DNA from: Gemmataceae bacterium
Lineage (GTDB): Bacteria; Planctomycetota; Planctomycetia; Gemmatales; Gemmataceae
Direction of reading: 5' to 3'
Assembly (NCBI GenBank): GCA_019694755.1
Contig: JAIBBI010000048.1
Span: 1-32,680 of the forward strand
DNA: 32,680 bases
This document shows positions 7,432-10,674 of this stretch, piece by piece; the stretch's first letter is position 1, and each line of letters starts with the position of its first letter. A model generated the notes under the pieces. That model saw only the letters and a program-made list of their open reading frames with translations. It was not told where the DNA came from and made no database searches. The translations under genes were made by a program, and so were the position numbers.

Positions 7432-7773
7432 ATGGCCCGCTGCGACGAAGGATATCCGTGCGAAGTTTGCGGCAAGGATGTCGAGGTCATGTCCGAATCC
7501 GACCTGTATTTGCGCTACGTCCTCGGCGAGGTCCCCATCTACGAACTGCACCTCCGCCGGGAGCGGCACATTCGGTGCAACCCGGCCGTTGCTCAGTACA
7601 TCGTCGACCCGGCCTTTGATCCCGTCACCTGCCCCGGGCCGTTCGGAAAGGCGGAACTGGACGCGGAGTTTGTACGTGCGGAGGAACAGCGAATTACGCG
7701 AGCGTGGCGGCGACTGCAGGTGATTCCGACTTTGGGCCTCTCGCTGGAACAGTACCCGCTGGAGGCACCGTGA
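7432..7773 (+). CDS. Conserved small Cys-containing protein, unknown function
   Basis: A 113-residue soluble protein. Five cysteines are visible: Cys4, the CEVC pair (Cys10, Cys13) near the start, Cys49 in HIRCNP, and Cys67 in VTCPGPFGK. The arrangement suggests a small metal-binding fold, probably zinc, but this is not a family I can name; I believe similar proteins occur in other planctomycetes. The frame is open upstream across the der start, but ATG 7432 was chosen because the residues before it are not protein-like and read through the der promoter region. The stop codon overlaps the GTG start of the next gene by four bases (GTGA), so the two are probably translated together and functionally linked. 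Confidence 0.7.
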   Translation: MARCDEGYPCEVCGKDVEVMSESDLYLRYVLGEVPIYELHLRRERHIRCNPAVAQYIVDPAFDPVTCPGPFGKAELDAEFVRAEEQRITRAWRRLQVIPTLGLSLEQYPLEAP

Positions 7774-9116
7774 GCAGTCCATGGCTCAGAATTCCGGTTC
7801 CCCGTCCGGCGGCGACCTCCCGCTTGCTGATCATCCCACATGCCGGTGGCGGTCCGTCCTACTACCGGAGCCTGGCCGCTGCCCTGCCGGCACACGTCGA
7901 GGGGGTTCTGGTCTTGTTGCCCGGCCGCGAGTCGCGGTTGCGCGAGGTGCCGATGCGGCATATGCCGGCCGTGATCAGGGAATTGGTCCCCGCGCTGGAG
8001 TCATTGCGCGACAGGCCGCTTTCCGTCCTCGGGCATTCGCTCGGAGCGATCATCGCATTTGAGATTGCCCGGCACTCGCCGCACATTGAAAGGCTCATCG
8101 TCGCGGCCGCCCGGGCACCTCACTTGCCCTTTTCCGGTCCGCGGTTGTGCGGGATGAGCGATGGTCAACTCCAAGCCGAACTTGGTCGGTTCGGCGGTAC
8201 GCCCGAAACCGTCTTGGCCCATACGGAGTTGTTCAGCTTGTTTTTGCCGGTGTTGCGGGCGGACCTGGAAATGTTCGAGGAATACGAATTCAAGCCGGGT
8301 CCGAAATTGAACGTGCCTATCCGCGTGATGAGCGGCTTGGCAGACGACCGCGTGCCACTTATCGACCTCCTTCCCTGGCGGGACCTGACATCGGCCGGAG
8401 TCGAACTCATCGGATATCCCGGTGGGCACTTCTTCGAGCACGACGCCGGCTTGGGGCCGATGCCTACCGCCGAACTCTGCGTTTTTCCCCTGGAAGCGAC
8501 GGACGCCGACGAGGCCCATCTCAACGAGTCCGAACTACGGCGGGCAAGGCAGTTCCTGAAGCCGAGCCTCGGAAACCGATTCGTCGCCGGCCGATCAAGG
8601 ATGCGGCAGATTCTCGGTCGGCGACTGGGACTCGCACCGAGCGACGTGCCACTTTCCACCAGCCCGGCTGGCAAGCCGCAGTTGGCTCCGGGAACCGTTG
8701 TCGACTTGCGGTTCAACCTCGCCCATTCCGGGGACCTAGGCCTGTTCGCCGTGACCGAGGGCATCGAGGTCGGTGTTGATCTCGAACGGCACCGGAAGGA
8801 CGTCGACTTTCACGGGTTGGCAGAACGGTACTATGCCCCCGGCGAGCGGGCGGTCGTTGCCGCGGCAAAGGACGTGATTTGCACTTTTTTCGGAATCTGG
8901 AGTGGCAAGGAAGCTTACTCAAAAGCCCGGGGTCTGGGGCTGAATCTGCCGCTCGACAGTTACGAAATCGCACTCGGATCGAACGGCCTTGCCGCCGGAG
9001 TGACCGACTTGCAGACTCCGGGTTGGCAGGTCCACGGTGTCAACGCGGCCGAAGGATTTTCAGCGGCCGTGGCGACGAAAGCTCCGGTCGCCGCGTGGCG
9101 GATTGTCGCGGAGTAG
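7770..9116 (+). CDS. Type II thioesterase fused to Sfp-type phosphopantetheinyl transferase
   Basis: A 448-residue two-domain protein. Residues about 1-230 are an alpha/beta-hydrolase thioesterase of the GrsT/RifR type: PHAGGG near the start, LLPGRESR, the nucleophile motif GHSLGA with Ser90, an acidic residue in GLADDRVP (about 192-193), and His220 in GGHFF. Residues about 235-448 are a 4'-phosphopantetheinyl transferase: NLAHS (316-320), the Mg-binding GVDLE (Asp337, Glu339) and WSGKEA (Lys380, Glu381). Thioesterases of this type clear misprimed carrier proteins; the transferase installs the pantetheine arm on them. GTG 7770 was chosen over the upstream open frame because it overlaps the preceding stop (GTGA) and follows GGAGG. 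No polyketide or peptide synthase is in the window. Both active sites look complete. Confidence 0.88.
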   Translation: MSSPWLRIPVPRPAATSRLLIIPHAGGGPSYYRSLAAALPAHVEGVLVLLPGRESRLREVPMRHMPAVIRELVPALESLRDRPLSVLGHSLGAIIAFEIARHSPHIERLIVAAARAPHLPFSGPRLCGMSDGQLQAELGRFGGTPETVLAHTELFSLFLPVLRADLEMFEEYEFKPGPKLNVPIRVMSGLADDRVPLIDLLPWRDLTSAGVELIGYPGGHFFEHDAGLGPMPTAELCVFPLEATDADEAHLNESELRRARQFLKPSLGNRFVAGRSRMRQILGRRLGLAPSDVPLSTSPAGKPQLAPGTVVDLRFNLAHSGDLGLFAVTEGIEVGVDLERHRKDVDFHGLAERYYAPGERAVVAAAKDVICTFFGIWSGKEAYSKARGLGLNLPLDSYEIALGSNGLAAGVTDLQTPGWQVHGVNAAEGFSAAVATKAPVAAWRIVAE

Positions 9117-9126
9117 CCGCGCAGGA

Positions 9127-10482
9127 CTAAGACCCGCCAAAGAACTTGGAGCCTTTCGGGCTCGCGAAGAGCTGACTCGGTGAAACCCGTTTATCATTGC
9201 GGTACGGATTATAAAGCGGGTCACCGACGAGGCACATCATCCAGCTCGAAAGCGGTAGTGACCGGGCGTAACACTCCACCAGCGTTGCTTCTCCGGTGAC
9301 GATCGCGCCGAAGAATTCCGCCGGCTTGGGGAAACCCACCGTGTACGGCTCTGCGACAGGGCCGAGCGTGACGCACGCGCCTTCCCGCAGCAGATTGCCG
9401 CACCACTGGCCCTCGTGATTCCTCAGCGAGACCATTTCAAAGCTGGCCAGGTGCCAGGCGATTGCGCCGCGGTTGAATTTGCACGAGGGGATGAAGTTTT
9501 TCAGCGAGTACCAGCCACAATACAGGGAGCAATCCGGGCAACTATTCGGCGGGAAGAGTGACTGGTCGTCGTTAACCGTGACTTGCATCTTGCCGTCGTT
9601 TTCGAGTAAGCGTGCCATTTCGCGCATGGATTCGTCGTAGCCGCCGTAGCCGGTACCCGAGGGGTCGCCCGGCGGATCGTATTTGATTCCGCGGGCGTCG
9701 ACATAAATTCGGCCTTTCAGCCCGTGCTCCTCCGCCCACACCGCGTCAGTGACGATCCGCATGGCGATTTCAGGTGTCGGGCCGTCGATCCGGCAGGTCA
9801 TCACTGTCGGCGGGAATCGCCGCCGTGTATCCGGGGACATCTGCCAATAGAAGGGATTGAGCACCCATCGGGCTTTCGGGTAGTCGGGCCACCACAGCTG
9901 CATAAGTTCGCTGTCGACTGCCGCTTCGCTTTCCGCGTGCGTCAGTCGCCGTTCCGCGTCCTCCAGTTCCCGGATCAGCTTTTGGAGCTCATTAATCTCC
10001 TTCCGGTGGTCGGCCAGGTCGTCGGCCGGGAGGGGGCGATTCTGCAGTTTGAATTCTTCCTCAATCAGGCTGACCGTCCGCCGCTCGATCTCCAGCTTTT
10101 TTCGCTTCTCGGCCATGTCGGCCCGCACGCCAACGAGTTGCTTCATTTCGTCCTCGGTCGTCGCCATCGGCCCGACCCGCAGGGGGACTCCGAACGTCGT
10201 CAGGATCACTTTGAGTCGGCCACGATGGGGGGTCAGAGCCGTGCGGAGAGGCGTAGCTATTCGGGCATCGAAGTCGGCACGGGTGATTTCGTCTCGGGCG
10301 GGGACGTCGATCTCGATAATGTTCGCGGCAGGGACCTTGCGAAGCCGGCAGTAATGCTCGGCCACTTCACGCGACTTGGATTCAGTCCGGTTGACGACGA
10401 GGAAAATGTCCGACGGGTCAAGTCCGGCACGGGCCGGGAGCGTCACAACCAGCAGGCTCGCAAAAACGATGACTGGCCGCAT
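9127..10482 (-). CDS. Secreted TIGR03790-family protein
   Basis: A 451-residue exported protein of unknown function. It begins with a signal peptide (MRPVIVFASLLVV, then ARA-G cleavage site near residue 20). The core blocks DIFLVVNR, VPAANIIEID, ILTTFGVPLRV, then late TYGVFKPAEFFG-like and LVGDPLYNPY match the TIGR03790 family as I know it, which is linked to organisms with exosortase sorting systems. An inserted charged, heptad-like stretch about residues 105-195 is probably a coiled coil. A Cys-rich patch (SCPDCSLYCGWYS) lies around residue 315-330. The open frame extends 50 codons upstream, but ATG 10482 was chosen for the signal peptide and an AGGAG site. It ends 10 bases from the converging fusion gene. 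Confidence 0.75.
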   Translation of the reverse strand: MRPVIVFASLLVVTLPARAGLDPSDIFLVVNRTESKSREVAEHYCRLRKVPAANIIEIDVPARDEITRADFDARIATPLRTALTPHRGRLKVILTTFGVPLRVGPMATTEDEMKQLVGVRADMAEKRKKLEIERRTVSLIEEEFKLQNRPLPADDLADHRKEINELQKLIRELEDAERRLTHAESEAAVDSELMQLWWPDYPKARWVLNPFYWQMSPDTRRRFPPTVMTCRIDGPTPEIAMRIVTDAVWAEEHGLKGRIYVDARGIKYDPPGDPSGTGYGGYDESMREMARLLENDGKMQVTVNDDQSLFPPNSCPDCSLYCGWYSLKNFIPSCKFNRGAIAWHLASFEMVSLRNHEGQWCGNLLREGACVTLGPVAEPYTVGFPKPAEFFGAIVTGEATLVECYARSLPLSSWMMCLVGDPLYNPYRNDKRVSPSQLFASPKGSKFFGGS

Positions 10483-10674
10483 GCCTGCCGACTCCTGGGA
10501 ATCGCTGTCCGGGCATTGCGAGGATACCGAATCGAGCAACTGTTTTCGAGATGGCGGCGATAGAAGAACACCCGTTATCCCCCATACACTGGCAGAACCA
10601 CGACTTGAAGGTCCGGTGGCGTGGATACGCAAGCACCATCCGACCTTTGTGCCGGAAAGACAAAGGACAGACCA

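Follow-up and report, generated by a model that had tools for sequence, protein, structure and literature searches.

A type II thioesterase-like domain and an Sfp/HetI-type phosphopantetheinyl transferase in one open reading frame of a planctomycete genome

Phosphopantetheinyl transferases (PPTases) can transfer acyl-phosphopantetheine from acyl-CoA, a mispriming that leaves the carrier blocked; type II thioesterases clear these acyl groups away (PMC4147253). SrfAD and Sfp are an example in which the two functions reside on separate proteins (PMC7960918). Like the protein described here, RifR, BorB and SrfAD have an alpha/beta-hydrolase fold, a Ser-Asp-His triad and GHSLG and GGHFF motifs, but they are separate proteins, whereas our protein lacks the last segment of the thioesterase and continues into a PPTase instead. 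Its PPTase shares the Sfp fold and the GVDLE and W..KE...K motifs with Bacillus subtilis Sfp and with HetI, both of which stand alone. A PPTase within a larger protein is also seen in the integrated PPTases, which are domains of FAS or PKS proteins. Known integrated PPTases reside in the synthase that they modify (PMC4117218); the partner here is a thioesterase, and Pfam finds neither carrier nor synthase domains in the fusion protein, which is thus not an integrated PPTase. Since the hydrolase is fused to a PPTase, and lies outside any megasynthase, it is a type II thioesterase-like domain and not a discrete, stand-alone type II thioesterase. The tandem thioesterase-PPTase gene pairs of Janthinobacterium, Bradyrhizobium, Priestia and Acidobacteriota encode the same enzymes in the same order, several of them sharing a frame broken by one stop codon, but make two proteins where the fusion makes one. 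The titles, abstract openings and text passages of the open-access literature that we covered describe no such fusion, and a description elsewhere is possible.

The fusion gene lies at positions 7770..9116 on the forward strand of the window, the 32,680-nucleotide stretch of DNA analysed here, and is a single open reading frame of 448 residues with a GTG start four bases downstream of a GGAGG site. Residues 1-222 (7770..8435) form the thioesterase domain, which matches Thioesterase (PF00975) over residues 18-222 at 98.9 bits against a cut-off of 26.4, and residues 232-448 (8463..9113) form the PPTase domain, in which residues 334-433 match ACPS (PF01648) at 50.1 bits against a cut-off of 25. 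Two curated domains above cut-off in a single frame are far beyond chance, and the domain search proposed in the earlier note thus bears out its reading of the gene as one protein joining these two enzymes. In a comparison with PDB sequences, the matches are type II thioesterases for residues 3-229 (6vap, 1.8e-37; RifR, 2.8e-37) and Sfp for residues 254-419. The NCBIfam HetI model (NF042922) covers residues 249-438 at 120.8 bits, which does not reach its equivalog cut-off of 370, so the fusion is not a member of that equivalog; judged from sequence, the second half belongs with the HetI/Sfp enzymes.

Both active sites are intact, as had been claimed from Ser90, His220 and the motifs GVDLE (residues 335-339) and WSGKEA (residues 377-382), and the triad acid can now be placed at Asp192 by alignment with RifR. 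These residues match those of relatives: S90 and H220 are kept in 27 of 27 aligned sequences and D192 in 26 of 27, while D337, E339, E381 and K385 of the PPTase half, which also contains H319, are kept in all 34. The last four align with the catalytic residues of Sfp, which we take to be D107, E109 and E151 for metal binding and K155 as the catalytic lysine. The first half therefore has the above-cut-off PF00975 match and Ser-Asp-His triad of a type II thioesterase, and the second the metal-binding Asp/Glu/Glu set and catalytic Lys of an Sfp-type PPTase.

An AlphaFold2 model built from a 59-row alignment is confident over both halves (mean pLDDT 92.5). Foldseek searches place RifR and BorB first among PDB structures for its first half, and the best match for the second is Sfp with CoA and a carrier (PCP) domain (4mrt; 225 columns, TMt 0.81), consistent with an Sfp fold of about 220 residues containing PF01648. 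The pLDDT falls below 50 only at the junction, residues 223-231 (EHDAGLGPM; 8436..8462), which is predicted to be disordered. Here the thioesterase half lacks a segment, some 15-20 residues long, that relatives have after the HFF motif, and the sequence passes GGHFFEHDAGLGPM-PTAELCVFPLEA directly into the first PPTase strand. The junction ends in an in-frame ATG (Met231; 8460..8462), which may be the former start codon of a separate PPTase gene and could conceivably still serve as an internal start. The pTM of 0.62 means that the mutual placement of the halves is poorly predicted, with no confident interface, and the model therefore does not give their relative orientation.

A second single-frame fusion, of 496 residues, is present in a Planctomycetota metagenome-assembled genome (G043; JAKOSN010000351.1) from another genus of the same family. 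The two fusions share 37% identity; the second retains the thioesterase tail, and its gene is surrounded by CinA, HEAT and TPR genes. The thioesterase tree lacks the resolution to show whether both fusions stem from one event; an AU test on the thioesterase halves does not reject a single clade (p 0.36), nor does that value show one.

How rare the arrangement is was judged from some 1,840 genomes, drawn from five phyla: 102 genomes of the window's own order, searched with the fusion protein; 392 of its phylum; and, searched with a profile of the two fusions, 398, 317, 319 and 316 of the phyla of Janthinobacterium, Pyrinomonadaceae, Paenibacillus and Catellatospora. The larger searches scored three or four candidates per genome. 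Among the matches listed, only the window's genome and G043 carry both domains in one open frame, and most of the 102 genomes of the order match the query with the PPTase half alone. By our reading of the match tables, a thioesterase gene shortly precedes a PPTase gene on the same strand in at least 16 genomes (G178, G208, G409; G516, G550, G577; G497, G948, G902, G960, G963, G970, G1143, G1183; G1530; G1552), and such tandem pairs are found in five phyla. In two of these, G497 and G948, the genes share a frame and a single stop codon separates the domains; it is TAG in the former (L143, contig C111, 9483-11054) and TGA in the latter (L148). These in-frame pairs are possible intermediates toward a fusion, or candidate sites of stop codon read-through. 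A plasmid collection adds 10 records in which a single site spans at least 80% of the query, and in each of the three plasmid pairs examined in detail (Janthinobacterium, Bradyrhizobium and Priestia) the genes again share a frame with one stop between them. NRPS or PKS genes lie near the Janthinobacterium and Bradyrhizobium plasmid pairs, and NRPS or NRPS-PKS genes are among the neighbours of the G178 pair and of an Anaerolineales pair (L111); none was found among the tested neighbours of the G208 pair.

Because separate thioesterase-then-PPTase pairs recur, some in frame with a single stop, the fusion is one short step from an operon: it is rare in this sample, yet by sequence comparison a single substitution or short deletion separates it from an arrangement that recurs. 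The two enzymes usually come from separate, often neighbouring genes, so a fusion is rare but understandable. The earlier note's view that the arrangement is uncommon thus holds, with two single-frame fusions in the genomes surveyed, though the adjacent and in-frame pairs of several phyla make it less surprising than the note implied. We regard the fusion as genuine, rare and sensible, a variant on a known enzyme pair.

The genome itself (G000, a 97% complete draft of 5.64 Mb in 335 contigs), which its kinship with the other genomes found suggests to be that of a Gemmatales member (Gemmataceae), contains the kind of carrier-protein pathway that the earlier note had supposed might lie elsewhere in it. 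The suggested search for PKS and NRPS genes finds a 3,389-residue NRPS-PKS on contig C118 (L101, 3297-13463), and a PUFA-like synthase set is present on contig C317. The former comprises AMP-binding, KS, AT, aminotransferase, Condensation, AMP-binding, three carrier and thioesterase domains. Its aminotransferase domain sits between the PKS and NRPS parts, and the domain order presumably recalls that of mycosubtilin-type synthases. The C317 set (L102-L103) encodes a KS-AT-carrier-carrier protein, a KR-dehydratase, a KS protein with FabA domains and an NMO/FabD-insert protein. PF01648 has two matches in the genome, the fusion and a 131-residue, AcpS-sized frame on C317, some 13 kb from the PUFA-like set; the fusion is therefore, as far as the assembly shows, the only Sfp-type PPTase for these synthases. 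PF00975 matches the fusion, the terminal domain of the 3,389-residue synthase and, weakly, one other protein, which leaves the fusion as the only full-strength match found in a discrete protein. The assembly is a draft, however, and may lack a further PPTase or thioesterase.

We think it likely that the fusion is a bifunctional enzyme of carrier-protein maintenance, which primes carriers and clears acyl groups that block them, and that it arose from a tandem gene pair. The C-terminal Sfp/HetI-type domain would transfer 4'-phosphopantetheine from CoA to the carrier domains of the NRPS-PKS, and perhaps also to those of the PUFA-like synthase. The N-terminal domain would hydrolyse acyl groups blocking the carrier arms, among them acyl-phosphopantetheine loaded from acyl-CoA by the fusion's own PPTase. 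As to origin, the two genes of the recurrent thioesterase-then-PPTase pair would have been joined as the thioesterase gene lost its last segment and its stop codon. We infer the activity of each half, the carriers served and this route of origin from the domains, the catalytic residues, the model, the second fusion, the tandem pairs, the synthases of the same genome and the mispriming chemistry (PMC4147253). Against this reading stand the loss of the thioesterase C-terminal segment, the poorly predicted placement of the halves, the thioesterase domain that the C118 synthase has of its own, and the position of the fusion gene outside biosynthetic clusters both here and in G043.

What the linkage itself contributes, both steps on one carrier or equal supply alone, we infer with less assurance. 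At a little under even odds, both halves are active but each acts on any carrier without regard to the other, and joining them does no more than equalise their amounts from one mRNA; since this reading is a special case of the maintenance enzyme, the two probabilities overlap. It agrees with the short disordered junction and the model's want of a confident interface, and the tandem pairs, whose genes are close or overlapping, already provide such co-supply. It is rather doubtful that the fusion attaches the arm and then removes a misloaded acyl group from the same carrier before leaving it; were this so, the PPTase need not discriminate CoA from acyl-CoA. The natural fusion and the many neighbouring and in-frame pairs point to a functional tie that is directly testable, and the protein might find use as a compact activator of synthases expressed in other hosts.

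A working PPTase that carries a decaying thioesterase, or one retained as a mere structural appendage, would fit the missing C-terminal segment and the match of most genomes of the order to the PPTase half alone, but we consider it improbable given the intact triad and motifs and the high model confidence over the thioesterase core.

The fusion is probably not a frame error, because codon-position bias is unbroken across the junction and a second fusion occurs in another genus. GC by codon position holds one frame on both sides, and neither of the other two frames hides a thioesterase tail, so a simple frameshift fails to explain the join. That an assembly or frame error joined two neighbouring genes is thus highly improbable, even though the window comes from a draft genome and tandem pairs recur, sometimes in frame with one stop between, since G043 was assembled separately.

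The fusion gene is flanked on one side by der and a gene (7432..7773, forward strand) for a 113-residue Cys protein, which the earlier note had suggested as part of the same unit. The TGA of this gene overlaps the GTG start of the fusion (GTGA), and the fusion's GGAGG site falls within its end, an overlap that may tie the translation of the two genes in the window's genome. That they form one functional unit through such coupling is nevertheless very hard to credit. The Cys protein has relatives in 81 of the 102 genomes of the order, der adjoins its gene in 17 of 29 other short loci, and in 33 loci of 30 genomes the fusion query finds no thioesterase or PPTase in its vicinity; with this conservation, frequent siting beside der and lack of a nearby PPTase elsewhere, it is probably a mere neighbour. 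Cys4, Cys10, Cys13, Cys49 and His46 are invariant across the 33 loci, and the only matches, weak and all below cut-off, are desulfoferrodoxin-like; from its sequence it is possibly a small metal-binding protein. On its other side the fusion gene is flanked by the gene for a TIGR03790-family protein (9127-10581; 243 bits), which is convergent with it.
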